A stretch of 53,273 nt of DNA from Fragilaria crotonensis. Taxonomy: Eukaryota > Bacillariophyta > Fragilariophyceae > Fragilariales > Fragilariaceae. Shown piece after piece: positions 18,131-51,531 of the stretch (its first letter is position 1; the number at the start of each line of letters is the position of its first letter). Both the position numbers and the translations under genes were made by a program. The stretch is from NCBI GenBank assembly GCA_022925895.1, contig JAKSYS010000432.1:1-53273 (forward strand), in the 5' to 3' direction. The notes below the pieces were generated by a model. It saw nothing but the letters and a program-made list of their open reading frames with translations. It did not search any database and was not told where the DNA came from.

Positions 18131-18466
18131 ATGTCTTCTGTACTTTCCTTGGCGTCCAGATTGGCGGCTCAACGAGCTTCGGTTCCCTTTCAACAACAAG
18201 TACGAACAGCCACAAAAAAAGCAGGAGGGTCTTCGAGCAACGGTCGTGATTCGGCTGGTCGACGATTGGGTATCAAGCTCTTTCCAGGCCTCGAGGCCAA
18301 GGCAGGTTCCATCATTATTCGTCAGCGAGGGAACAAGTTCCGTGTTGGAGAAAATGTTGGAGTGGGGAAGGACCATACCATTTATGCATTGAAACCTGGT
18401 ATTGTTAAATTTACCAGATTGGATTCCAACAAAAAGAGGAATGTCGTCCATGTATTGGAGAGGTAA
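18131..18466 (+). CDS. MRPL27: Mitochondrial 50S ribosomal protein bL27m
   Basis: The 111-aa protein has the hallmark bL27 sequence. [20 protein letters not shown] (residues 26-45) is the basic N-terminal arm that reaches the peptidyl-transferase centre. It is followed by [20 protein letters not shown] and [12 protein letters not shown]. The first 25 residues ([17 protein letters not shown]) are Ser/Ala/Arg-rich without acidic residues, a typical mitochondrial presequence. The [13 protein letters not shown] form with KLFPG is typical of mitochondrial rather than plastid L27. Length is normal and no intron is needed. This is the clearest housekeeping gene of the window. Confidence 0.93.
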
Positions 18467-18693: not shown

Positions 18694-21686
18694 CTACCCG
18701 CCCATGTTTTTCAGTCCCTTGGTTTGCGCTCGAGTAAAGTCCGCTTCACGGAGCGAGATCGTTCGCGCATTAGCCTTGTGTCGTCGTCGTCGTTTCACAA
18801 CTCTATTCCGATGGGTCTCCAAGATTGTGAATACCGGACAAGACGAACCAATGCGTACAGCGTCGGCGTATCCATTTTCAAAGCTTCCTTCGTAAGTGGA
18901 TCCAGTAAATTTAACAGAATAGCCCCCCACGCCGTAGTTGCAGCACATGCCATCTCCCCATTCATCTCGAATCGTAAACACGTAGCAAGTCGACGAATCA
19001 ATGCATTGCGTGTCCTCGCGCGTTTCCCATGATTTGTAGCCATTTCCACTCATGACTTGTGACCCAGATAATGTCCTGAGCGTCCAGGAGGTTTCGGATC
19101 CAAAGTAATCGGTAGTGATGTTTACGCTGATGCGAGCCTCCCCGGTGCCACATCGGGGTTTGATCTTCGTTTCTTCCACTAGTCCAAATTCTCCTCCAGA
19201 TGCAAGCTCGACACCATCCATGGAAAGAAGGTAGGAACCAACGCCGTTGTCACAGCACATACCGTCACCGTACTTGTCCTTCATTTGAAAGACGTACGAG
19301 TCATTTGGTATACACTTGCTCTCCTCGTATTCCTCGTTGGCTACCTCGTAGGGCCCACCCTTGAGTGTCACTATCCTTGCGGCGTTACGCAGTTCCCATT
19401 CCGTTTCGGCGGGGTATAGATCCGTTTTGATTGACAATTGAAACCACGTCTCATTTTCCTTACAATCGGGAATTCGTGTTTGCGAATCAGAAGGCTCCGA
19501 CGAAGGCGATACCGATTGGACATCTCGCGGAGCCGCTGGTTTTCCTGTCGGACGTGTGTCTACCGATGGGGTGACAATCGGGATAAAAGGAGACAGCATT
19601 GGCGCCGCCGACAATGGAGATGTTGTCTGAACCGTCGGGGCAAGAGAGTAGTCCTACCAAGGGATGGTACAACACTTGGAGTGAAAGTCGCTTGCAGATT
19701 ACTTGGTGAACTCGAATTTTGGACGGAAGGAAGAGAGGATTGAAAACTTGGTGGCAGAGTTGGAAGCCAGGTCTGATCGACCGTCGGTGCAGAGGTCGGA
19801 TCGACTGTTGGCGCAGAAGTCGGATCGACGGTTGGCGCAGTGGTCGGATCGACTGTTGGCGCATAGCTTGGTGCGGAGGTCGGACTTGAAGTCGGACGTG
19901 AAGTTGGCCAGGTCGTTGAAAGAGTTGGCCTCTGTGTCGTTTGCGGGATCGACGAAGGTAGCGGAACCTGAGCGTTCACAGGCGGCAGGGTGGACGCAGC
20001 CGCTGGTCCCTGTGTTGTCGGCAAGATCGAAAACTGCTGAGGAGTCGGCATCTCTGTTGGTCTCTGTGAAGTTGCTAAGTTCGATGATATAGTTGGCCTC
20101 TGCGAAGTTGGAGGAGGACGTCGGCACTTCATCACACCGATGTGTCTGGGATCCTTCAATGAAGATACTCAAGCGGACGTAGTTGGGAATCATGGTGTTG
20201 AAGATGCCACAAACCTTTATGATGAGAGGATTGGTCCCATCGAAGTTTTCATATTTGAACGAAGCTCCATTGCCCAGGCCAGCGAGAGAAGTGGACATTG
20301 ATCGTGTGCTGTTGCCTTCCGTGATGGTCACCTGGTCAGCTTTTTCAACCGTTCCCGAGTTGAAATCTTTTTTCCTGTTGTATTGAAGGTGCAGATTGCC
20401 GACCTTTACTAGTACGTATTCATTCGGAGATGTAGCTTTGTAGTCAACAAAAGTTGCCAGCTTTCCAGCCCAAGCCCCAGTGATTTTTGGGTCTACCACG
20501 ATTTTGCGATCATCGTACCACCCCAGAAGCCAGTTCTTATGCCCGTCAAAGCACATTTTGGGACCCTCGTTACTAGCGTAACTGTAGCCCACTGCGCCGC
20601 AAACGATGAGCGAAAACAGAATGATTGAAATCGCTAAAATCGCCACGCAATGCGACTGAACTTACTCAGACTACTCTGGTCGCCGTAGACAGCATCGCCC
20701 TCATTTGAATGCAAGAGGCCTAAATTGTGACCGACCTCGTGCGCCTGTTGAAGGTCAAATCAGCCTTACCACAAAATGACGGGAATACCCCAGGAAATAA
20801 CACTCACCTGTGCACTAGGGTAGCCACACCAAAGGTCATTGTATGACGACCGGTACCAATTTAGGTAACCATATGCAAGCCATGTTCCGGCAGTCCCAGG
20901 AGGTAAACATAGCATAACATGATCGTACAACCTGCTAAGTTCCCCAAACTTTGTATTGCCAACAGCAACCACCAAATTGTCAACATCAACACTGTTCATT
21001 CCACCAATCTTTTGGGGTAGTACAATCTCACCTACACCGTTCAATATGTTTGGTCCAGTCGCCGGAATGAACTTGAGTTTACCTGCCGAGCAATCACCAT
21101 AAACTGAAAGAAGGTTAACTTTGTCACCATCTGTACCAAAAATTCTGTTACTCAATTCTTTGGCAGTAAGCGTTAAGTTGCGATCAGCTGAGGAGACGCG
21201 AAGAACAAGAACTGTACTAGTTCCTATCTTTCGCACTGTTAGGCGCCTCGAATTGGAAGTGTCCCTCGGCTTCCTACGTCTGCGAATAGGAATGTTCTGG
21301 TTTTTCGGACTCCCCTTGGAAAGCTTTATCTTTGTACCAGGAGGTGCCACAACTTGATCTCTGGTGCCTTTCTTTCGAGACACCTTCCCCCGCGGAATGG
21401 TAGCGTAAACCTTTCCAGCATCAAGATCTGTCTTAAAAGCGGCAACGCTATCCTTGTCTAGGTCAACCGCATAGGTCATGTCTGAGTTGACACTCGTTTC
21501 ATCCGATTGAATGATGCATCTATACTCTTGCTCACCATCTCTGTCTTCATATTGTATGGCAAGGACTTTGATCTGACAGATTACCTCATCGCCATCTGGA
21601 AGTGCGTCCGACGCCTTTCCCTGTTCATCGCACCAGCCGCAAGAGATTGTTGACACCAACACCGCTGCCAATTTTAGAAACCTCAT
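18694..21686 (-). CDS. Gametolysin-like M11 metallopeptidase with PT linker and two GDGMCC modules; frame breaks in the linker
   Basis: Exons are 21686-20808, 20744-20666 and 20591 onward, with introns of 63 nt (GTGAGT/AACAG) and 74 nt (GTAAGT/GCGCAG). A signal peptide (MRFLKLAAVLVSTISCGWC) and a pro-region with RRRRKPR precede the catalytic domain. Splicing creates HEVGHNLGLLHSNEGD, the zinc motif HExxHxxGxxH, then SSLMGYSYAS with the Met-turn methionine. The GPKMCF segment follows. After about 20130 the natural continuation, a PTSAPTVDP linker, is one base out of frame. Near 19635 the frame shifts back, giving two roughly 90-residue modules (19470-18830), each ending in YGDGMCC or WGDGMCC. 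Read without correction the ORF ends at 19699. It is secreted and probably degrades extracellular glycoproteins. It may be a recent pseudogene or contain sequence errors. Confidence 0.7.
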
Positions 21687-22263
21687 CCTGCCTCGCCAAC
21701 GATAAGAAAATGTGGCCCTTGACTTCTAGTTCCAAATTTGGGTCTTCATTCCCATCCAGAGCTTGCAAGATTCGATTGGTCTGGGGTCCTTTGGTGGACA
21801 GCAAGTCCCGGAATGACTACACTTTGGAGGTGCAGCAAGATTCGTTGGAGTCTCCGCTTGGCAAATTCGATGTCTGGTGCGGCAGAGATATTCTTCCTCA
21901 AAAACAGCAACCTTCGCACGTGTTTTTGTGGATTTGTTGAAACAATAGAAGATAGGCAGGGCATTCACTTCTCAGAGTGATGTTAATGGTTGCACTGATC
22001 TACGTGTGTTCATGTTCTCTCATCAATCTACAAGGAGAATGGAGCATTAAAATGACCTTAAATCTTAAATGTCTCAGATTTTTTCATTTTAGAATATATT
22101 ATTAAGAAGACTGTATGTGTATAGGTGTGCATACATGCAAGAACGGAATTACTACTGCCCTATGCACATACAAATCGAATAAACTCATTGGCAAGGCTCA
22201 CATCCAAATACTCCAATTTTTTGTGTATACGAAAACCATGTCGAAGAACTCTTCCCGAAAACC
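21687..22263. other. Divergent intergenic region between M11 gene and broken SGNH copy
   Basis: 577 bases separate the two divergent starts. There is AT-rich sequence at 22060-22110. No further gene is supported. Confidence 0.5.
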
Positions 22264-23043
22264 ATGACAAGCATAAAGCGGAGGGCTTCCTGGGTGCTGC
22301 TGCTTCTCGTTACGATTTCATGTCTCAAGGTCGAATTTTCATCAGAGACGAGCCCCTCAAGGACATTGCCTCCAAATTAGATCCCCATTTCCAGAAAATG
22401 CTGCTAGTCTAGAAATACATGATCGGAGCAAGATAGAACTGCCCACAGCAACGGTGATCCGAGCAGCATTTGGAGAATGGCCGACAACAATGGACAGAAA
22501 CATCAAGTGTCAACTCGTTCGAGATGGTCGAAACAATTTGCATAAAGTCGTGTATCCCTGCCGCGACATGATTTCGGGCAAGCCCTTACGCAACCGTGTG
22601 GAACTGCCGTCATCAAATTCTTTTCAGTTGTGCACCTTCATCCAGACAAACCTCAACATTCTTGTCATGGGTGACTCGTTACCTTTCGAGTTTGGGACAT
22701 GGTTTCACAATGTTGGAAGAGCCAAAAACAAGACGAATATTGAAGGCCTCCCTTGGAAACATCGCATCGCTGAGGTACTTGTGTGTTTTCCGAAGTGGAT
22801 GGAGGGGCACCATTTCATTCAGGAGGAATATTGACTTCTGGATATGAAAGAACCACGGCCTCTAACTTCCTTACTCTGGTAGATGTTGGAATAAAACGCG
22901 GGTAGCAACGCTGCTTAGTAAACTGCCAACTTCATCCGACAAAGGTACTGTCCTGATTTTTCGAGTATCGTACCCATGGCTGACCATGAAATAACGTGAC
23001 TGAGGAGTTCCTGCGTGAGAGAGTTGCAGTGGCTCACGAGTAC
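22264..23043 (+). pseudogene. Broken paralogue of the SGNH esterase at 24112
   Basis: An ATG at 22264 opens MTSIKRRASWVLLLLVTISC, matching the start of the intact gene, but a stop follows after about 38 codons. Similarity resumes in another frame at 22454-22800 (IRAAFGEWPTTMD, YPCRD, ILVMGDSLPFEFGTWFHN, KNKTNIEG). It continues, again shifted, to about 23043 (LPTSSDKG-like and EEFLRERVAVAHEYQ-like segments). The nucleophile motif GDSL is still present, but the C-terminal third and the catalytic His region are missing. It is a truncated, multiply frameshifted copy and cannot make the full enzyme. Confidence 0.8.
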
Positions 23044-23567
23044 CAGGCGCTTTGTGGATCGATCATTTATTTATACTGAAGGTTTTGACTGCGCAGTCCT
23101 GGGTTTGGGCCCTATGCAGTTTGATAGGTACCTCTCCTGTCATGTACAGAAGTCTAAGAGCCTGGTATGCCATAGCGATGGTTGTCACCTTTGAAATTTG
23201 CCGAACAGTAGTTTCTTGATGATGACTGCCAACAAGCCAGCAGGGCTATCTAGAGTTCTTCCCATTGTTAACTTGGATGACTTGGTCAGTGAACTCCGCG
23301 AAAAATGAGACTTCGAATAATTCAGAGCGATAAGTGGCTCGTTCAGATTCGATCATACTAGAAAGGGAAGACCTCGAGGCTCGTGTAACTCAAAATTTGA
23401 AAAACTTAAGCATTCACCGCTCAAGGGCCATAGAACGAGGCAAAATAAGAAAGAATGAGGCACATGCGACTGGTTGGACAAGCGAGGTTGGAGCATTTCT
23501 CCATCCAACGTCAAAACGCAGCGAGGATGACTTTCGACATTTGAGTGACACAGCGTCAGCGAGCTGA
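23044..23567. other. Intergenic between pseudogene fragments
   Basis: No gene is recognised. The short plus ORF at 23334-23567 is not similar to any neighbour. This interval sits where the duplicated unit was rearranged. Confidence 0.4.
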
Positions 23568-23850
23568 TCGTACAATGTGCTGAGTTCCCCAAACTTGGAA
23601 TGGCCAACTGCGTTGACATTGTACACACAAACACTGTTCATTCCACTGTTCGTCACTTCCCCTACTCCGTTCAATGTGTTTTTGTCACGAGCTTCACTTT
23701 GGTATCATCTGTACCAACGATTCTGTAGCTCAATGATTTCGCAGAAAATGTTGAGAGTTGCAATCAGCTGCGGAGACGAGATGAACAAGAACTGTACTAA
23801 TGCCTTTCTCAGCGAATTTGAGCACGTTCTGGTTTTCCTCTACTCTAGTA
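23568..23850 (-). pseudogene. Fragment of an M11 peptidase gene
   Basis: The minus strand reads LNGVGEVTNSGMNSV and VGHSKFGELSTLYDQL. This parallels LNGVGEIV...GGMNSV and VGNTKFGELSRLYDHV of the first M11 gene (positions about 20920-21080). Further upstream bases still resemble 21100-21300. The fragment lacks the zinc-binding exon and signal peptide and has internal stops. It lies head-to-head with the intact SGNH gene, mirroring the intact M11 and broken SGNH pair. Confidence 0.75.
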
Positions 23851-23932
23851 GTAGCGATAAAATGCTGACCACTGCGTCCTTCGATCAGATATTTTTGAAC
23901 CTGAAACGTCGACTTACTTTATGACGGACATG

Positions 23933-23940
23933 TATAAATA
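23933..23940 (+). promoter_or_regulatory. TATA-box candidate
   Basis: TATAAATA lies 172 bases upstream of the preferred SGNH ATG. A TATA role is plausible only by sequence. Confidence 0.3.
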
Positions 23941-24111
23941 GAGAATGTACGCAGAATATATGCATATATTCATTCAGTTTTACATCAATACTTCCCGTGG
24001 TATATGGATATATACTATATACACGTACCTTTCAAAAAATATACTCCAGTATTCAACCTTCCACACTTTCCGACACAATATGGAAGAAGGCTTGTGAGGA
24101 CAGCGAGAACA

Positions 24112-25398
24112 ATGACAAGGATAAGGGACAAGGCTCTCTGGGTGCTACTCGTTCTCGTTGCGATTTCATGTCTTGAGGTCGATCTTTCGTCAGAGACGAG
24201 CCTATTCAAGGACTTTGCCTCTATATTAGCGTCCTCACTTCCGACAAATAATGATACTTACCTACGAATACACGATTTGAGCAAAATAGAGCTGCCCACA
24301 CCAATGGTGATCCGAGCAGCTTTTGAAGAATGGCCGAAAACAATGGACACAAACATCAGATATCAGCTCGTTCGAGGAGATCGATACAATGTGAATGCAG
24401 GCACATATCCCTGCCGCGACAAGATTTCGGGGAAGCCTTTAGACCACCGTGTGGAACTTCCTCTATCAAATCCGTTTGATTTTTACACCTTTATCCAGAC
24501 CGATCTCAATATTCTTGTCATGGGTGACTCGTTAGCAGTCGAGTTTGGAACCTGGTTTCAAAATGCTGGAAGAGCAAAAAACAAGACGAATATTGAAGGT
24601 ATCGATTGGAAGCGATACATTGCTGAGGGACTTGTTTTCGCTGACGTGGATGGAGGGGGCACCATTTCTTACTGGAGAAATCTTGGCTTTTGGCTGAGAA
24701 GAAACCATGGCCTCCCACTGCCCAATTACGGCAGGGGATGGACTGAATCGTGGGTGACGACGCTGCATAGTAAACTACCGACGTCATCCGACAAAGTTCA
24801 CGTCCTGATTTTTCGAGTATCTCACCCATGGCTGAGCATGAACGATGTAACTGAGGAATCCCTGCGTGAAACCATTGCAGTGGCTCAGGATTATTTAGGG
24901 GAGCCACTGACAATTATTTTTATGACCGTGCCCGTCAACAATAACATTGTCACACAGCAAGACTTCGACGATTTCCGAGCTATGAACAATCGCATTCGAT
25001 CGTTCGTGACAAATTTGCATTCATCCGACGTTCTGGTGAGTGACCTTGAAGTTTACATGGATAACATTATCAAATGGAATGCAAAGCAGATTGGCATGAA
25101 CACTTCGTATCCAAGCTGCTTTCTCGCAGAACGCCTTGTCATGCGCCGCAATGCTCATCACGTTGCTCAGGTGTGCGGAGAGCGCGTCCCGATCAACAGT
25201 ACATCTTGCCGAAAGAACATACTGCTAAACGATGGTTTACATTTCTGCACGGAGACCCTTGGGCCTCGCTTATTCGCCAACTGGGCATGCCTACTTCAGT
25301 GCATGGAGCGTTCGTCACAGGCAATCAGGGAGTGTGAAAGGGCGTGCAATGAGGTGTACTTCACCCTCAATGAAACCCTTCCTGCGGGTGGAATTTGA
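24112..25398 (+). CDS. Secreted or membrane-anchored SGNH/GDSL-type esterase
   Basis: The start at 24112 (MTRIRDKALWVLLVLVAISC) puts a signal peptide or anchor at the N-terminus; a further in-frame ATG at 24004 would bury it. The 428-aa protein has LNILVMGDSLAVEFGTWF with candidate nucleophile Ser140. Near the end comes LLNDGLHFC, where D374 and H377 fit the D-x-x-H of the PC-esterase/SGNH fold. Spaced Cys residues (YPCRD, PSCFL, QVCGE, TSCRK, HFC, WACLLQC) suggest a disulfide-rich extracellular protein. The family removes acyl groups from polysaccharides or lipids; the substrate here is unknown. It has no intron. A broken paralogue lies 1.8 kb upstream on the same strand. Confidence 0.75.
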   Translation: MTRIRDKALWVLLVLVAISCLEVDLSSETSLFKDFASILASSLPTNNDTYLRIHDLSKIELPTPMVIRAAFEEWPKTMDTNIRYQLVRGDRYNVNAGTYPCRDKISGKPLDHRVELPLSNPFDFYTFIQTDLNILVMGDSLAVEFGTWFQNAGRAKNKTNIEGIDWKRYIAEGLVFADVDGGGTISYWRNLGFWLRRNHGLPLPNYGRGWTESWVTTLHSKLPTSSDKVHVLIFRVSHPWLSMNDVTEESLRETIAVAQDYLGEPLTIIFMTVPVNNNIVTQQDFDDFRAMNNRIRSFVTNLHSSDVLVSDLEVYMDNIIKWNAKQIGMNTSYPSCFLAERLVMRRNAHHVAQVCGERVPINSTSCRKNILLNDGLHFCTETLGPRLFANWACLLQCMERSSQAIRECERACNEVYFTLNETLPAGGI

Positions 25399-25905
25399 TG
25401 GGACAAACATGTGCAACCCACTAGGTATCCTTCTTTGGCGCCTCGTGTGTTTCTGTACCACCAAGATCTTAAGGTGTGATTGATTGATTGTCGGTGGAGT
25501 TTGATCTTCTGTGAAGAATCAAGGCTCTGGAGCAAGCCCCAACAAATCCAGATGTTCTATTTCGGGAACGTGCCACAACTCCATAGTTCATTCCGTACTA
25601 CGTACTCGTATTGAGCGTCTCCTTGGGTTGAGATTGCTCCCTTAATAACTTGTTTTCCCTGATGTCCTAGTACCCTCGGAAGGGAACGGTGCCTGAACCG
25701 AAATGGAATCTGGATCCAGATGCTCAATGGCTTGACATATAAGTGAATTATGGATTCTTGGTCAGTTGTTAGTGAAGATTTTGTCTGCAAAGACCTGGCT
25801 TTGTGGCAACTCTGCGAAAGCGAGTCTTGGACAATTCAAAATGATGAACTGGTTTTGGTGTGATCCCAACTTCCATACAGCAGCGTCCTCTCAGGAGAAG
25901 GCGTG
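25399..25905. other. Intergenic, no gene supported
   Basis: 3' flank of the SGNH gene. The minus ORFs here lack recognisable motifs. Confidence 0.45.
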
Positions 25906-26172
25906 CGTCTAGAATTTTTCGCCAGAGAAAGTCTGATGTCACTTGCGTAGCCGTAGGGTCCATGTTTCCACTAGTTTAATCACTGAATCTGCTCTAAGAT
26001 TTCGAACTTGCCAAGAATGTACGCCAACTTGAGTAGGAGTAAGGGATCCGTCTAGAATTTTTCGCCAGAGAAAGTCTGGTGTCACTTGCGTAGCCGAAGG
26101 GCCCACATTTCCAATAGTTTGATCACTGAATCTGCTCTAGGAGGTCGAACTTGCCAAGAATGCACGCCATAC
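25906..26172. repeat. Two-copy direct repeat, period 143 bases
   Basis: Copy 1 is 25906 to about 26030 and copy 2 is 26049 to about 26172. Both begin CGTCTAGAATTTTTCGCCAG, share ATCACTGAATCTGCTCTA and end with TTGCCAAGAATG. They differ at roughly one base in ten. No coding potential is seen. Confidence 0.85.
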
Positions 26173-26256
26173 TTTAGCAACAGCAAGGGATAAAAATCAT
26201 AAAGAAGGAAGACACATGCTATATGTTTTGCTAGCTATCGTGGAGGGCTTCTCCAT

Positions 26257-26805
26257 CTAGCGTTTCAACGCTGCCAAGGTGTCTTTCGCCATTTGAGCAT
26301 GGGAAGCGGCGTCGGCGAGCTCATTGTAAACCTTCTGGCAGACTCCATTTTTGTCGAGGACATAGGTGACACGACCAGGGAGGAGTCCAAAGGCTGCTTT
26401 GGGAACATTGAACGCCTTGCGAACCGTATCGTTATCATCCGCAAGGATAGAGAATGTCAGACCGAGCTCCTGGGCAAACTTTTGCTTGGACGCAACATCC
26501 TGGCCGCTAATTCCGACGAGGTCAGCACCAAATTTCTTTCGGATTTCGTCGACTATTGTGTTGAAAGTTTTCGCCTGGACAGTGCATCCAGGAGTAGCGT
26601 CGGCAGGGTAAAAATACACAACAAGGGGCTTCTTGATCTTCGAGCGAGTGACAGTTTTGCCATTTTGATCGACGAGTGAAAAGTCAGGTGCAGTCTCTCC
26701 AACTGCCAGATTCAGCTGTGACTTCAAGGCACTGTTAGGAACGCTGGATACGAAAGCATTGGCTCCGAGAAGGAGGGACACAAGGACGGTAAGTCTGAAG
26801 TTCAT
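26257..26805 (-). CDS. Plastid peroxiredoxin Q (BCP-type) lacking the usual resolving cysteine
   Basis: The 182-aa thioredoxin-fold peroxidase reduces H2O2 and organic hydroperoxides. [18 protein letters not shown] is an ER signal ending in an ANAF motif, typical of diatom bipartite plastid targeting. The core has [17 protein letters not shown], then [18 protein letters not shown] with peroxidatic Cys74, and [12 protein letters not shown]. In PrxQ the resolving Cys normally lies five residues after the peroxidatic one (CTKEAC). Here that position is Lys79. The only other mature Cys is Cys156 (NGVCQKV). The enzyme may act as 1-Cys or use Cys156 or a partner. Length is typical and no intron is needed. 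The ATG at 26805 is the only sensible start. Confidence 0.92.
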
Positions 26806-27586: not shown

Positions 27587-29076
27587 CTATGTGCGGCCGA
27601 GACAACTCACGTTGTCCGATTTTCGGGAAACTTGAACCACAGCGAATTGCCTGTCAGTCGAATACGGTACTCTGGAGCAAAACTCAATCTTGTAGTTCTT
27701 GTAGAGAGTGCTAGTTCCTAGCGCCAGGCCCACCAGCAATTCGGATTCGAAATCTTCACCACTGGCCTTAATGATAACGATTTGGTTTCGGTTCTCCTGA
27801 ACCTGAATGTTGGCGCCTTGGGCGCGATTGTACTGAATGTAGACGTCGCTAAAATGAATCAGCACGTAATCGCCGTTAATTGCTCGCTGGTAGTCTGTAA
27901 ACGCGAGAAGGCGCCCCTTCCACGGTTTCACGTTGGGGAGGATCTCGACCTGTCGATCTCTAAACCATCCCAACACCCAATGCTTATGCGCATTAAAGCA
28001 CATACGTGGACCGCCAGTCCATTTGTATGAGGGGCCCATCATACAAGTTTCGTCTCTGTAATTTCCCTCCTTGTTCGAATGACTGAAAGACGGGTACGGC
28101 GCAAATGATCAGTACACATTACTCAAGGACAACCACTTTAATGCTCACGAGGCGCTTTGTATACGTACTAAAGACCAATATTGTGGCCAATCTCATGCAC
28201 AACGACACTGTTTTGGCCACACCAGTCGTCGTTGTAGACGGTGCGGTAAAAAGAATTGTAGCCGTAAGCAGCCCAGGAACCGGCCGTACCTCTCGGAAGA
28301 CAGTATATTATATGGTCCCAATTCCATACGGATCCATATTTTGAGTTTATTGCAGTCGTAACGGCATTTTCCACTTGGCGATTGCTAGCACCTTTGACAT
28401 TCATGTTGATTTTAACGAAGCCAACGCCTTTCACAATGTCATACCCTTTCGCTGGAACAATTTTTAGCTTTCCGTGCGAGCAATCCGTGTAAGTCTTTGC
28501 CAATGTCCCAGAGGGAACGTTCGGTTCTCGATCTTGGACTACATTCAATCCATTTCCGAATATCCTGTTGTATAAAAGATTCGCGCTCAAGGACGTTCTA
28601 GCATCATTAGCAATCACACGAATTACCAATACTTCGGATGTTCCCGCCTTCCGTTGACTTCCGGATCCAGAGAGCTTCCGACGTCCACCACTTTTTCCGA
28701 ATGTGATATCACTCGCACTTGACACAACGATTTCGTCCGAAGAGGCACGAGAGCCACCACGGTTGCCCCGCCCAGGGAGGCTCCCTCCTTTAACATTCAT
28801 GGTTTTTTGTCCCGGTGCTTTGAGCTGTTTCTTGTGAGTTTCGACGATTTTCACAGGGATGCTGTACACTAGATCATTCACAAGACACGATACAACCTCA
28901 TCTGTACTTTGGACTGTCGTATTTTGAAAAGCTCGGTCAAATCGCAAAACGTGTGCAATGAGGACATCACAACTGAAAACATCGGTTTCGTTGCTTGTCA
29001 CCGACACCGGTGTCGATCCTCTTATCGGTAAGATCCCTGTGGCGAGAAGTACAAAGCAAAGAAAATTAAAGAACAT
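27587..29076 (-). CDS. Gametolysin-like M11 metallopeptidase, short form without C-terminal modules; one intron
   Basis: Exon 1 is 29076-28169 and exon 2 is 28082-27587. The 86-nt intron uses donor GTACGT and acceptor TTTCAG. Joined, they give 467 aa with no frame break. The ATG at 29076 starts MFFNFLCFVLLATGILPIRG, a signal peptide. A pro-region with GGRRKL precedes the catalytic part (EVLVIRVIAND, KYGSVWNWDHIIYCLPRG). The zinc motif HEIGHNIGLYH is split by the intron, with TA in exon 1 and T in exon 2 forming the Tyr codon. ETCMMGPSYKW supplies the Met-turn, then GPRMCFNAHKHWVLGWF. It ends soon after a beta-rich region (FAVVQVSRKSDNVSC). It is probably a secreted zinc endopeptidase like Chlamydomonas gametolysin. 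This is the only one of the three M11 genes intact as read. Confidence 0.85.
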
Positions 29077-30986
29077 GATCACAGGTAACTGCCGGTCAGA
29101 TTGAATCAAGGTTGAGGCTCAAATATTCCCTTGCAGACCATCACTCCGCCGGTAACATTGAATGAGATTCTAAAAACGAGCCCCGGCAGAGCCATCGCTT
29201 TTCCTCTTCTCCTCTAACCCCTTTTCCCTATGCATATGCATACACTGTAGTAGAAAAATGGATGGCAGGGGTTCGCGGAAAAAAATCTCAGTTTACTCGT
29301 TTCGTCTTGGATGTCTAACTGTAATTGATACGCTATATAGGAAAAAGACGACGTTGATGTAAACGACGAAGGTGGGTGACGGTTAACGAGGTTTTAAGGA
29401 ACGAGTGCCAGATACTGGTACTTGTACTACCCTACCCCATGATTTCAAAAACGAGCAATCGGAGTTGACGACCATGTGTGTTATTCCTACTGGATGTGCT
29501 CAACAACAGTTCAATCCTGGGGTACTAGTACTGGGTACTACCAAGTACTCCGAGTACAAAGTACTATCAAACTCAATAGCAACTATGTTGTACTCGAGTA
29601 CCTGGTACTATCATACTAGCAAATATGCAAAACAGAGTTGGTATGTACTTGGCGTACGCGGCTACTTGTACGAGGGGTGTTATGGAGGGAAATCGTTTAT
29701 GGTACGTATACCAGTATCATGCCTGGTAAAGCATTCAAATACATATGCATACTTGATTTTGTTGGTTGATGATTGACGCGTGTTTGTCTTTTGTCTTGCA
29801 GAAAGGTGTATGCGTATATATATCTATATACGCATAGAAGTATGTAACCTTCTTCATTGATCCCAGTACACGTACTAAATGCAGTACTGTACTTGTATTC
29901 ATACTTCTACGCAGGAGTACAAGTACCACGTTGACTCATTCATTACTTCTATCATACGAAGCCTTCAAATGGTTATCGCACGGAGTTGCCAACCGTGTGT
30001 GTGATAAACGAAGAGATTTAAAAAAAAACTGTGTTTTCTGTCGCTATGATTTGTTATTTCCCTCCCGGCAGGCGGCAGGCGCGTTTTCATCCTTATTCAC
30101 GACTCCGCACGTATTGCCGGACCTTCCAGTACTGGTACCAGGTACGAGGGGCTTTTCGCTCGTACAGTACTCATGATAATAACGCCGCTATGGAACTCCA
30201 GAAGCACGCACCATCAAAGTACTGTAGTATATAGAAGTACTTATTACTACAGTATATACTATACACTAAGTATACTACGGAGTACATTCTAACGAGCAAC
30301 TACTACTGTAGTTCTAAGTACCCTACTACCGTAAGATTTTTTTCGACTGTATCTCAGGCGATAGTTTGCTTGCATCTCAGCGATCAAAATATATACATAT
30401 GGTTGTGTTTGTTGCAATTGGAAATGTGATGCTGACATGCTCAATAGGCTGCCATGTGAGTGGAGCAACAGGTGAAGTGGATGATATCTCCTCAACTTGT
30501 CGTAGTACTTCAACTGCGAGAATCATGTAAAGCTGAGAGCTTGAATTGCTTGATTCCGTGGTTTGGCATGAAGTTCGGTAGAGGAATATCGACTTGAAAT
30601 CTGCGAATGTAGTCGCATTCGATTGTCCACGATAAGACCTCTAAAACAAGTTCACAGCTAACCTCAATGTACCATTATCAGTTATACCTCCAGTGAACGA
30701 TAATTCTTCCCAAAGTCCCATGCCTAACTTATAACTAGTGACCGCCAAAGCGTTATCGAAGGTTGACCACAAGCGCAAGAAGTCTGCCACATGTGTAAGT
30801 CGAGGCGATGGATCAACAGCTTTAGGCTGATGAGGTCACACACATTACGATAGGTAGCGGTGACAAGGGTTACCAGGGGAATTTTGTTGTGTGCCTTGTC
30901 TCCACCTTTCTCATCTGGTTCATGCTCGTGCGTGTCAGCCTGCAATACGCTGAGATATCAGCACCCTTCCACTACTTTTGCCTTAT
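29077..30986. repeat. Long intergenic region dominated by GTAC-rich words
   Basis: 29400-29930 and 30120-30340 are packed with GTAC-based words (GGGGTACTAGTACTGGGTAC, CCAAGTACTCCGAGTAC, CCAGTACTGGTACCAGG). TATA-type alternations occur at 29810-29840. 30350-30986 is less repetitive and holds no convincing ORF. Confidence 0.6.
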
Positions 30987-33900
30987 TCAGACGGATTTGA
31001 CCCCATCGCAGATGTCACACGTCTCTGGACACGTCCCCGATATTGTTCTGTCCATACACAGCATAGCGTGTAACGTTGGTCGGAGCGACAGCCACTCACA
31101 GTCACGCATTTTCCCGTCCACGAGGAAGCGGCCTGATATTGAATCTTCGCAGTCATCTTTGCAGACTTGGCATGTCTCGGGACAGAGATCGCGCGCCTTG
31201 GATTCACTTGTTGCAGAGCACAGAATGGTGATATAGACAGGGCGCGCCGCAAGCCAAACGCATCTCTGGAATTGGTTCAGCTCTTCCACGTAAAATGCCG
31301 CGAACTTCTCGTCGTCGCAGAATGGTGCTGGACCTGGGGCAACTGGGGAACTAGTGGCGGTCGGAGCAGCTGTGGTTGGCAGCTGAGAAGCTATTGCATT
31401 AGGAACACCAGAGGGCGATTGACTTGGAACGTCGCAAATGTCACAAGTCTCTGGACAGTACAAAGATGCATCTGAAGAACCTGAACAGAGATCTTCCTTG
31501 AGTTCTGGCCTGAGTCGCAACCAAAGGCAATCGCGAATGTCCTCGCCAATGTAGAACTTCGAATCTGTATCAACGCAATCATCAACACAGAAACCACAAG
31601 TCTCAGAGCACGCGACAAAGCCTCTTTGTGTTGAACAGACTTCCGCCGCATACTCAGGCCGAGCTTGCAACCAAGCACAACGATGTTCCTCGTTCAAAGA
31701 AGGGACCAGGAAATATTCAAAGTCAGAATCATCGCAGACTTCTATCGAAGATTGTTCAACAGGAACTGATACGGAGGGTGGCGTTGGTGAAACTTTCACG
31801 GGAGCATCGATGGGTGCGACAGAAGGTCGAGCAGTTAGAGTCAAGTTGGGGGACACTGAGATAGGTGACGGGACAATCGTCGGCGCAGGAGTTTGCGGAA
31901 CTGGACTGGAACGTTGGGTGGGACTCCTTGTTGGTGAAGACTGCACAAAAATAAGATCCGGAGGGAAAAAATTCTGCCACAATCGTGGCACAGGAGCTGG
32001 CGTTGGTTCAGAGGTCGGGTCTGTCCCTGGCGGGGCAGCAGTAGGAGCCACCGGCGACGAAGTAGGAGTAATAGGCGCAGGACTGGGTCTCGGAGTCGGA
32101 GGCCAGGTTGGAAGCATTGTTGGGAAAACAGGAGCCGGAGTTGGAGAGACTGGTGCTGGGGTTGGTCGATCAGTCGGATCGTTGGTTGGCGAACCCGTGG
32201 GAGACATGGGGACAGGTGTAGGTGCCGCTGGCGCCGAAGTAGGAGCAACAGGAGCAGGACTGGGTCTCAGGGTCGGAGGCCGAGTGGGACGTGTCGTAGG
32301 AAAAACAGGCGCCGGGGTTGGAGGGACTGGCGCTGGCGTAGGTGGATCACTCGGTTCTTGAGTTGGCGACCCCGTAGGGGCCACAGGCGCCGGAGTTGGA
32401 GCAACAGGCGCAGGACTGGGTCTCGGAGTCGGAGGCATAGTGGGATGCATTGTTGGGAAAACAGGAGCCGGTGTCGGTGGCACCGGAGCCGAAGTTGGAG
32501 AGACAGGTGCTGGAGTTGGTCTGGGACTCGGAGGTCTGGTGGGGTCCATTGTTGGTAAAACGGGAGCCGGTGCTGAAGAAGACAATCCCGGAGGCGGACA
32601 AGTCGATGATTGTCCTTCCAATCGAATACTGACTAGTTTCATGTCGATACCATTCTCCTGGCTTGCCCCGCAAGCCTCGAAAGTAATGCTTCTTGAGACA
32701 CCAAAATCAATACTGGCTGTGAGCATGGGTGCTTCAACTTCGTGAATTCCTCCCAACATTTCGGATTCGCATGTGTCACAGGGTGATGGTATACCTTGTG
32801 TAATTGTGACATGGAAGGGTTTCTCACTAACGTCTTCGTTATAGTCCTTGGCGAAGTTGTACAGAAGATACGCGTTACCAACCTTCACTATGATTGGAGT
32901 TGTTCGCACTTGAAGCTTCCCATGGTCAACAAAGGCAGCAATGTTGCCAGTCCAAGGACCATCCTTGTCAGGGAAGATCTCAATTGTGTGCTCCGGAAAC
33001 CAGTTGAGTTGATAGAATTTTATGCCATTGAAGCACATTTTTGGACCCTCAAGCTGAGAGTAGCTTTTCCCCATCATACAAGATTTATCTTCATACTCAC
33101 GGCCCTGCTCATTAGAGTGCTGCAGCCCAAGTTGATGTCCGACCTACGAGACCAAGCTTGTCAGCAGAAGGCATTTGATTGACATAGATTTCCCCTACAG
33201 AATGACAACAGATAACACTCACCTCATGAAACGGGAGGGAATAGTAGCCACACCACTCGTCGTTAAAGTAGCTGAGAATGCCCTCTCCATAAGTGTAGCC
33301 AATCCACGAATCTTGCATACCAGCGGGCATGCAGAAGAGCACGTGATTGGAGACATCAGGGGTTCCGAAGGCAGCTACCAAGGACTCGAGTAACATATTC
33401 TCAATGGTAGTAGACATTGTTCCGCCCAGCACTGCTTGGTCGATGAATAGGTCCGTCACTCCATTCGTTATTCTTGCTCCTGCAGCTGGAACGAATTGCA
33501 GTTTTCCTCCCGAGCACTTGTCGTATTGCGATGCAAAGGACACAATGTCTCGCGAAAATATTTGTTTGGACACAAATTCATGTGCTAAAGAGTTGACAGA
33601 ATCGGACGATTGCACCAGGACTATCAATACAGTTGAGCTCCCCTCGGTGCGACTTTGCAGACGTCGTTCCGAATGTTCCAACACTTCAACTGTAGCATCC
33701 GGGGAGACATCTAAGAAATATCCATTTGTAGGATCATGAACAGCGGAAGCGCCCTTGATGTGGAGAATCGACTTCCCTGACTTCAATTCTTGTAAATTGA
33801 GTTGTTTCAACACGGAGTCAGGTATATCATACTTCATAGGAAGTCTCCCCCGCCGATGCAAAGGTCTGGCATCGGTAATCTTTGTGCAAGTGTTCATGGC

Positions 33901-46691: not shown

Positions 46692-48056
46692 TTAAGGCCG
46701 TTGTTATACAAGAAAAAAACATTGAAGTTTTGAAGTTTCGAACATTCATAACCTATTCAATAGGTTATGAATGTTCGAAACTCGAAATCCATGAGGTCGA
46801 CATGCCCTCAAAATTGAAGTGGCCACGGCCAAAACATTCAAGTTCGGAGTTTCGAACATTCATAACCTATTGCTCCAGTACACCTGTTGCGTGTATTTCA
46901 TGTAGGAATGTTTGGGCTATCTCTCCAACTCACCAACTGCGATGAGAATCTGCAAGTTGGAGCCCTCATCTCCAGCATGATCCAACCAATGATGAGCGAG
47001 GAGACAGAAAGTTGCGTGTGAATCACCCGGTCTCAAATCAACTTTACTTTTCTCAATCCGAGCGAGATTGAGCGAGGTATGACCAGATATGACTGCTGGA
47101 AATTGAGCCGAGCACACCGTGATGATACAATAATTGCAATAGTAGTGCTAGTACGTCTATTTCAACTAAGACTACAACATAAATCTGAGGAGACAAAAGT
47201 TGCGTGTGAATCTCCCGGTCTCAAATCAATGCCTTTCATCTCAATCCGACGAAGATTGAGTGAGATGCGACCAGCGAGGACGTCAAGATGCGGAGTACGG
47301 ACTCGGACCGCACCGTGATAATACAAATATCACTCGGACTCCTTCAAATAAAGGCTGCAACATAATCTAAGTTGACAGAAAGTTGTGTGTGAATTGCCCG
47401 GTCTCAAATCAATGTCGTGCATCTCGATCCGACCAAGATTGAGTGAGATACGACAAGCGAGGACGTCAAGAAATCGAGTCCGGACTCGGACCGCACCGTG
47501 ATAATACAAATATCACTCGGACTCCTTCAAATAAAGGCCACAACATAATCTGATTGGACAGAAAGTTGCGTGTGAATCGCCCGGTCTCAAATCAATGTCC
47601 TTCATCTTGATCCGACCGAGATTGAGTGAGATACGACCAGCGAGGACGTCAAGAAATTGAGTCGGGATTCGAATGATACACGGTTCGTCGTCTCCGGGTC
47701 TGGTGTCCTCGCTCGTCGTCTCTACTGTTGTCTCTCCTTGTAAAAGACTCATGCTGCTTGTAGAGATACACCTCCTTGCTTCAGAAGCTGAAGAAGGAGG
47801 AAGGTAACAAGAGAGGATGCATCATTTGTACTCGTTTAAGTGCAGATTCGAGTAAGTGTGCCTGGTAAGGGATCGGTCAAACGAGAGTGACCTTGAAATA
47901 ATTGTACTTCAAAACTTCAATATTTTGTTTTGCCGTATAATAATGTACAAGGTCGAATGAAGTTTCGAACATTCATAACCCGATAGATAATAGGTTATGA
48001 ATGTTCGAAACTTCAAAACTTCAATGTTTTATTTTCTTGTATAACAACGGCCTAAG
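46692..48056. repeat. Nested inverted repeat with a perfect palindrome at its left arm
   Basis: The left arm (46692-46781) and the right arm (47962-48056, inverted) share TTAGGCCGTTGTTATACAAG, CATTGAAGTTTTGAAGTTTC and GAACATTCATAACC. The left arm ends in a perfect 23-bp palindrome around one base (46735-46781, GTTTCGAACATTCATAACCT...). The right copy (47962-48011) has the same stem with a longer centre. A third half copy occurs at 46850-46870. Confidence 0.85.
47000..47680 (-). repeat. Four-copy tandem array, period 183-188 bases
   Basis: Copies of GTTGCGTGTGAAT...CCCGGTCTCAAATCAA begin at 47011, 47199, 47382 and 47565. Each is followed by ATCCGA-x-CGAGATTGAG. On the minus strand the copies translate as SLNLGRI...DLRPGDSHATFC, open over the first and last copies. 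That conservation suggests descent from a coding repeat, but no full ORF remains. Confidence 0.8.
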
Positions 48057-49224: not shown

Positions 49225-49797
49225 ATGACAGGTGATTGCAGGAGTCGCTCTGCGCCAAGTTCGCCATGCAGGATGTTTTTCCTTGTTATCCTCGCCTCAT
49301 TTTTTGTCGCTTTCACTTCTGCTGCAACGTGTGGCAATGGTGTTGTCGGCGACGGAGTCTGTTCGATTGCTGGATATTGTTGCTCGAAGTTTGGATACTG
49401 CGGACCTGGTGCAGATTATTGTGGTAGCTCACCTAAGCCATCCCGCCGCCCAACTCGCAAGCCTACGCCGTCTCCCAATAATCCGGTTTTGTGTGGTGGA
49501 GGTGTTGTCGGCAATGGAGTCTGCTCCGATCGTTCGTTGTGTTGCTCCAAGTTTGGATACTGTGGAACTGGTGTAGCGTATTGCGGTACACGTAAGCCAA
49601 CCCGCCGCCCAACCCGTCGACCAACTCGTCGACCAACCCGTCGACCAACTCGTCGACCGACAAGAAAGCCTACTCAGGGCGCTAACATCAAAGTTTGTGG
49701 CGGAGGTGTCATCGGCATCGGTGTCTGTCCCAATCAAGGTGATTGCTGCTCCAAATTTGGATACTGCGGCACAGGGGCTGCGTATTGTGGCACTTAA
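49225..49797 (+). CDS. Secreted protein with three hevein-type (chitin-binding type 1) domains
   Basis: The 190-aa ORF has ATGs at 49225 and 49273; the second puts MFFLVILASFFVAFTSA directly as a signal peptide. Three Cys-rich units of about 35 residues follow, each with CG-x-GVVG-x-GVC, then CCSKFGYCG and YCG, the chitin-binding type 1 (hevein) pattern. The aromatic residues that bind N-acetylglucosamine stack (FGYCG, YCG) are kept in all three. The spacers are basic: KPSRRPTRKPTPSP, then an RRPTRRPTR tandem encoded by a 12-bp repeat (49600-49665). The protein likely binds chitin or another GlcNAc polymer in the cell wall or matrix. Diatoms such as Thalassiosira make chitin. No catalytic domain is fused. 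Confidence 0.85.
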   Translation: MTGDCRSRSAPSSPCRMFFLVILASFFVAFTSAATCGNGVVGDGVCSIAGYCCSKFGYCGPGADYCGSSPKPSRRPTRKPTPSPNNPVLCGGGVVGNGVCSDRSLCCSKFGYCGTGVAYCGTRKPTRRPTRRPTRRPTRRPTRRPTRKPTQGANIKVCGGGVIGIGVCPNQGDCCSKFGYCGTGAAYCGT

Positions 49798-51531
49798 GAA
49801 CTGCGATATCCTACTCGCAAATCTGTTGCATTTTTAGAAACATGGTGAGATACTCTCAGGCTACAACTTAAGAATTGTTAACCCGCTTTTTTTAGTGTCG
49901 CACGCGGAGCTTTCTAATCATTGCTTATTTAACGGACGATTACCGGTCCACACGCTACACACTGGACAAAGACTTGATCAAAAGACAACATACCAAACCC
50001 AATCAATCTGGCGTAGTCACGTCGTATTCCTATTTCCGATGAATAGTACAGTACTGAGTATGTCATATGACTGGACGTCGTACTGTCCGCATATACTACC
50101 ATACTATGTACAGTACTCTGGACTCTGGACAGTGGACAGTAGACATTACGGCATCGGCACAATGGCAATGCGACGTCACGATTGATGTCATTTCAGCCAT
50201 GTCTATAATCCATAGGCAGCTGGGACTTGGTTGCAGCAAGAAGATAACTTTAGCAAGATATGTAGCCCTCAGATATGATAAGTTTGCCAATTAATAAGTC
50301 GAAGTAATTTATCGAGGATGCAAAGCCTTCTTCTTGTACATTTAGCACCAGCAAGCATTGTAATCCCTATACAATTGATGCCTAGCTCTTTGAATGTCAT
50401 GCCATTGTCATGTCAAACCCAAGAGTACAAGCTTTGATCGTTTGCTGGAAAGACACCACAGAGAAACTAGCTAGGACAGGTTGCTCGACAAGATTGTTGC
50501 ACCATTACCCAAGACAATAGACCACCAGCAGTTTCTACTAGCAAAACAACAACAACAATCTTTATAAAACTATTATGCAATCAGGAATGGCCAATCAACT
50601 TAATTGGCTTGCCAATGGTCTCTTTGTAATCAAGTGGGTACATGACGACAGCTGAAACATTACTTTCACAGCTATTGTGAGGCACCAGGAACACAGAACA
50701 CAGACACCAATGGCTGATTCTAGGGCTGAGCAGGGCCATTAGGTTGTTAATGGTGATGATTTGTGCAATGGTAAGTTGCTAACCTTTGTTCACATCTGTG
50801 AAGAGGGCATGGAGTTTAATCATGTGGGAAGCTATTTTACTCAAGCCAAACCCTGTAAGTGCATATCCTCATCCTTTGATCCCTACATTGCTGGGTGGGC
50901 ACCAGGACGAGCCAAGGTTGGTTAGTAGCTACCTAGTACTTAGCTCTTGTTGAGAAATATTCCATAAGAGGTTAGCCTGTGTAATTTGCTCACATTTTTT
51001 CAGGTTGCTGATTGTCCCTTGGCAAGTTCCAATTTAGACAAAACTTTATGAATTTTGCTGCTGCAGTAATTCCTCAAATGCTTGCCACTCCCAGCACGGT
51101 CATAAACACAAGTCTAGAACTTCTTGAAGAAGATGTTACAGCTCATGAAATGATGGAGATCTTCATTACATTCTGAATTCTGAGGCAATGGGAAGCATGC
51201 AATTTGCCCCACAACTTTTGTTTGATTGAGTTATTGGTGCGATTCTGCAATACCGGAAGGAACTTCAGGCTGCTTATACTAGTAAAATGCACCACTGCCA
51301 AGTAATACAGTAGCGTAGAGATGTCTCAGTTCTATGTACTCTACCGGTAGCTACCGTAGTACCTGATGGTACACTCTAGAACTGCAAGCGTGTAGTAGTA
51401 CGTGTGTTAAAAAAAGGCGAACTCCAACTCAACTCATCCGTCTGTCCATCGTCCATTGATTTGGATCTCTCACCGGGTCTTTTTCTCATCGGATCAGACG
51501 ATGAGGAAACCTCTGCCATTCGCATGCCAAG
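49798..51531. other. Intergenic, no gene supported
   Basis: 50040-50140 is GTAC-rich with repeated CTGGAC/GTGGACAGT words. 50300-51300 is AT-rich and resembles the repeat debris at 6-8 kb, with no recognisable motif. 51320-51410 is GTAC-rich again. Confidence 0.45.

Follow-up and report, generated by a model that had tools for sequence, protein, structure and literature searches.

A partial tandem duplication at a locus of M11 peptidase, SGNH-like and peroxiredoxin genes in the diatom Fragilaria crotonensis

The DNA considered here, called the window throughout, is a stretch of 53,273 nucleotides of F. crotonensis, in which genes of a gametolysin-type M11 peptidase and of an SGNH-like protein lie beside a peroxiredoxin gene. 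Along the window an M11 gene (minus strand) is followed by a broken SGNH-like gene (plus), an M11 fragment (minus) and an intact SGNH-like gene (plus). The original prediction had given these four pieces in this order, with these strands and coordinates, and window self-alignment and the reading of open reading frames agree with it. The features are as follows.

18694..21686, minus strand: M11-A, a gametolysin-type peptidase gene and the surviving M11 gene, recognised by Pfam and zinc motif
20920..23572: repeat unit 1, comprising the 5' part of M11-A, the SGNH1 pseudogene and the peroxiredoxin tail
22256..23042, plus strand: SGNH1 pseudogene, with frameshifts, two stops and the 3' half missing
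23442..23572, minus strand: peroxiredoxin 3' tail, made up of roughly the final 23 codons and 3' flank, absent from the original prediction
23565..23572: junction, the presumed duplication breakpoint, where the peroxiredoxin tail meets the M11 fragment and the two alignments overlap by 8 bp
23565..23846 (end approximate), minus strand: M11 fragment in three frames; it corresponds approximately to M11-A residues 141-257, which precede the catalytic motif
23565..26328: repeat unit 2, comprising the M11 fragment, SGNH2 and the peroxiredoxin 3' end
24112..25398, plus strand: SGNH2, an intact SGNH-like gene of 428 aa with an N-terminal hydrophobic segment
26257..26805, minus strand: intact peroxiredoxin gene (AhpC/TSA); the duplicated unit ends on its right side within the 3' end of this gene

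In our own splice reading, M11-A consists of exon 1 (21686-20808), exon 2 (20744-20666) and exon 3 (from 20591), all on the minus strand, and the removal of two small introns places the zinc motif HEVGHNLGLLH at residue 295. The spliced product of 472 residues matches Pfam Peptidase_M11 with an E-value of 7.8e-9 and 35.4 bits (cut-off 21), so that both the HExxHxxGxxH motif and a Pfam score over the cut-off are present. In these two respects M11-A is like the gametolysin-type peptidases (PF05548), from which it differs by a linker rich in Pro/Thr and by Cys-rich repeats at its C-terminal end. Two frame changes within the linker (19560-20160), at about 20.13 kb and about 19.65 kb, must be assumed if the catalytic part and the Cys-rich repeats are to be read as one protein; they may be read error, a missed intron or real damage, and bear on the full intactness of M11-A. 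Its 3' end adjoins a ribosomal protein L27 gene on the plus strand (18131-18466, Pfam E 2e-32). Since two further M11 genes (27587-29109 and 32745-33831) lie on the same minus strand in the window, M11-A is better viewed as one gene of a local series of M11 genes than as one partner in a pair.

The start of SGNH2 was taken as the ATG at 24112, because the similarity of the two copies begins there, and its reading frame ends at 25398. Known hallmarks of SGNH hydrolases are GDS in block I and DxxH in block V. In SGNH2, G138, D139 and S140 as well as D374 and H377 are invariant among relatives, as is an N residue, and the designation SGNH-like, a putative one, is based on these invariant residues, the family having no Pfam match. 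In comparisons of the predicted fold, SGNH esterases top the VIA-align list, with GTPases in a near tie and at the top in Foldseek; residues 369-382 around the histidine are modelled with pLDDT below 50. The nearest known counterparts of SGNH2 would be SGNH/GDSL hydrolases, such as those of carbohydrate esterase family 2 (PDB 2wab, 2wao). No relatives were found by tblastn in phage records, and scans with a few short patterns, from which absence does not follow, gave 6 pattern matches in viral contigs and 69 in bacterial and archaeal genome contigs, none of them an SGNH-like relative. Between SGNH2 and the peroxiredoxin gene lies a non-coding direct repeat of 129 bp (25898-26169, 89% alike, spacing 143), and further local repeat arrays are present in the window at 32032-32579, 46998-47671 and 49330-49798.

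The strongest self-match of the window is that of SGNH1, in which 22256-23042 aligns to 24104-24893 with 78.3% identity over 793 columns. Two parts of the M11 fragment align to M11-A at 79% each, 23690-23809 to 21112-21229 (E 5e-22) and 23565-23646 to 20920-21004 (E 8e-13). A third match, which had gone unremarked, joins 23442-23572 to 26193-26328, the 3' end of the peroxiredoxin gene and its downstream flank (69%, E 7e-7); its local score of 51 was reached by none of 500 shuffles, the best of which scored 30. This stub is the least similar part of the repeat and is too short to date. The M11, SGNH and peroxiredoxin matches are collinear and fall into two adjacent direct repeats with identical gene order and strands, the arrangement that a tandem duplication leaves, as had been proposed. 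The original prediction had named the absence of alignment beyond the two coding pieces as a result that would speak against it; since the alignment extends into the peroxiredoxin gene and its 3' flank, this is not what was found.

Not all of the two units can be aligned. The divergent spacers do not align with each other (an equal or better score in 330 of 500 shuffles), nor does the M11 5' end with its spacer, 21230-22255 against 23810-24103 (71 of 500 shuffles). The stretch 23043-23441 aligns to unit 2 over 34 bp only, a tentative match with a score of 33 against 29 for the best of 500 shuffles, one of six comparisons and uncorrected. Further deletion or heavy divergence in both units therefore has to be assumed; non-coding DNA at such divergence may be beyond alignment, yet deletions must be assumed as well. 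Filling of 23043-23441 by a transposon or repeat was considered and found no support, the stretch matching only itself in the genome in a search that skipped simple and very common repeats.

The junction at 23565-23572 is the most informative part of the locus. To its left the sequence is peroxiredoxin up to about codon 160, and to its right it is M11-A from about codon 256. Of the 8 bases of the junction the parent sequences share 6 today, with which microhomology at the break would be compatible, though unproven by them. The M11 and peroxiredoxin frames meet in phase at the junction by chance, and the joined frame is now broken. In a genome-wide DNA search (62.1 Mb, 881 contigs) the junction stretch matched itself and M11-A only, the peroxiredoxin stub not being picked up; the genome holds one full copy of the peroxiredoxin gene, two other matches being only 33-34% alike.

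It was originally assumed that the duplicated unit was the divergent M11/SGNH pair alone and that decay later removed one member from each copy. Such a history accounts for the gene order and for one dead member per unit, but it is contradicted by the peroxiredoxin tail, which belongs to the unit, and by the cut at the 3' end of the M11 fragment, which coincides, within the 8-bp overlap, with that of the peroxiredoxin; it is highly improbable. The coincidence of the two cuts implies that the M11 fragment was most likely cut off at its origin by the breakpoint, rather than lost by decay as had been claimed, and decayed further afterwards; it now lies in three frames with one stop.

Very probably, then, the locus goes back to one tandem duplication with both edges inside genes in an ancestor of F. 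crotonensis, followed by decay of SGNH1. The order of events that we infer is as follows. A segment of about 3.5 kb, as measured by today's 20920-22255 and 24104-26328 together, would have been copied in tandem. On the left it would have begun within M11-A, near codon 256, and on the right it would have ended within the 3' end of the peroxiredoxin gene, near codon 160. This would have left, in order, full M11-A, SGNH1, the peroxiredoxin tail, the M11 5' piece, SGNH2 and the full peroxiredoxin gene. Both the M11 piece and the tail of the peroxiredoxin gene would thus have been truncated from the outset, and with edges so placed the fragment would never have had a catalytic part. SGNH1 would have been functional for a while, because its apparent ortholog P0003 is still intact in another organism, before substitutions, indels and the disappearance of its 3' half turned it into a pseudogene; M11-A, SGNH2 and the peroxiredoxin gene would persist as single genes. 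The claim that the survivors are split over both units holds good, M11-A standing in unit 1 and SGNH2 in unit 2. An identical junction would result if a larger tandem duplication had copied the M11, SGNH and peroxiredoxin genes whole and a later deletion had joined the copy 1 peroxiredoxin gene with the copy 2 M11 gene. This main rival needs two events where one suffices, and no remnant was found of another catalytic M11 part or another peroxiredoxin 5' part; we regard it as improbable.

The quality of the assembly also has to be considered, since the assembly of F. crotonensis is MinION-based with haplotype purging (PMC9476933), and two haplotypes or misjoined reads might have been set end to end. 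A near-identical copy that differs only by missing bases does exist elsewhere in the assembly: the SGNH-like copies at G000:C113:43803-44870 and G000:C291:10128-11238 differ in 13 of 1,396 columns, in each of which C291 lacks a base, and probably represent an uncollapsed haplotype or a recent copy with uncorrected nanopore deletions. However, the two units of the window are about 22% different, far above the level of haplotypes or read errors, and one of them is without half a gene; on the strength of this difference an artefact was rejected, its probability being practically negligible. As the C113 and C291 copies differ by missing bases only, a mark of uncorrected read errors, single-base gaps by themselves are poor evidence in this assembly. 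The decay of SGNH1 is evident without such single-base indels: there are two in-frame stops, and of 64 positions invariant in relatives SGNH1 retains 23, differs at 5 and is missing 36. The loss of the first SGNH-like copy had been claimed, and the frameshifts, the two stops and the missing 3' half support it.

The age of the duplication was approached through synonymous divergence and phylogeny. The dS value is 0.44 (SE 0.06) between SGNH1 and SGNH2 and 0.39 (SE 0.11) between the M11 fragment and M11-A, and such similar values are what one event predicts. Pairwise omega values of 0.44 and 0.48 cannot separate a gene born dead from a gene that died later. In a tree of 21 rows, SGNH1 joins P0003 (intact, 433 aa) with 100/99 support, a placement as ortholog based on about 231 columns that gene conversion could blur, and SGNH2 joins P0001, while its grouping with P0002 is weak (53/19). 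AU tests rejected SGNH1 with SGNH2 and P0001 (p 0.0047) and with SGNH2, P0001 and P0002 (p 0.0075), and the end branch is 0.24 for SGNH1 against 0.085 for P0003. Since SGNH1 and P0003 group together, the duplication predates the split from the P0003 organism, and SGNH1 was probably still functional at that time. The M11 fragment, with a branch of 1.53 in the tree of M11-A relatives and AU p values of 0.15-0.49 for four groupings, gave no placement from which the duplication could be dated. Another of the SGNH-like relatives, P0008, is itself a protein of F. crotonensis. A speculative and rather unlikely extension is divergent resolution, in which copy 2 of the SGNH-like gene survived in F. crotonensis and copy 1 did not, and the P0003 organism retained copy 1 and may no longer have copy 2; if this were true, different lineages would have been left with different members at one locus.

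The divergent layout had further been taken to suggest a conserved pairing or co-regulation of protease and esterase, and selection might have kept it through co-regulation of a protease with an esterase-like protein, for example in cell-wall remodelling. The two genes of the ancestral unit were indeed arranged head to head, their start codons (21686 and 22264) lying about 0.58 kb apart, and the M11-A and SGNH-like products both start with a hydrophobic segment. Against this, the spacers are unalignable and the survivors M11-A and SGNH2 now have their start codons 2.4 kb apart; a shared short promoter motif could escape notice at dS near 0.4. M11 matches occur in at least 32 places on at least 16 contigs of the genome, a lower bound from the best candidates scored, and SGNH-like matches on at least four contigs, of which the window contig alone has both. 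Of these 32 M11 places none lies on the other three SGNH-like contigs (C113, C291 and C764), and no M11 match (E up to 0.1) was found within about 9-10 kb on either side of their SGNH-like loci. C113 and C291 are probably one locus, and these are therefore two or three independent negative cases. The lack of conserved pairing elsewhere, the second result named beforehand as speaking against the idea, is thus what the other SGNH-like loci of this genome display. The main text of PMC9732472 makes no mention of peptidase, protease, metalloprotease, esterase, gametolysin or MHU86, and nothing on topic appeared in the titles and opening lines of abstracts on SGNH, diatoms and divergent genes. Selection for co-regulation is accordingly very unlikely, no support for a conserved or co-regulated M11/SGNH pair having emerged from these sequences, and we infer that the arrangement is without regulatory meaning.

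The locus is a real and well-preserved partial tandem duplication, a product of ordinary genome evolution. With partial tandem gene duplications that have intragenic breakpoints it shares the adjacent direct repeats, the outer genes cut at the junction, and the inner gene copied whole with one inner copy then lost, and no difference of substance from such cases was seen. It provides a readable example of how duplication edges inside genes produce truncated pieces that may pass for decayed genes, and a warning that the by-product of a duplication should not be read as a conserved, co-regulated pair. The SGNH-like family, which has no Pfam entry and was met here in just a few diatom-like sequences, may merit characterisation of its own.
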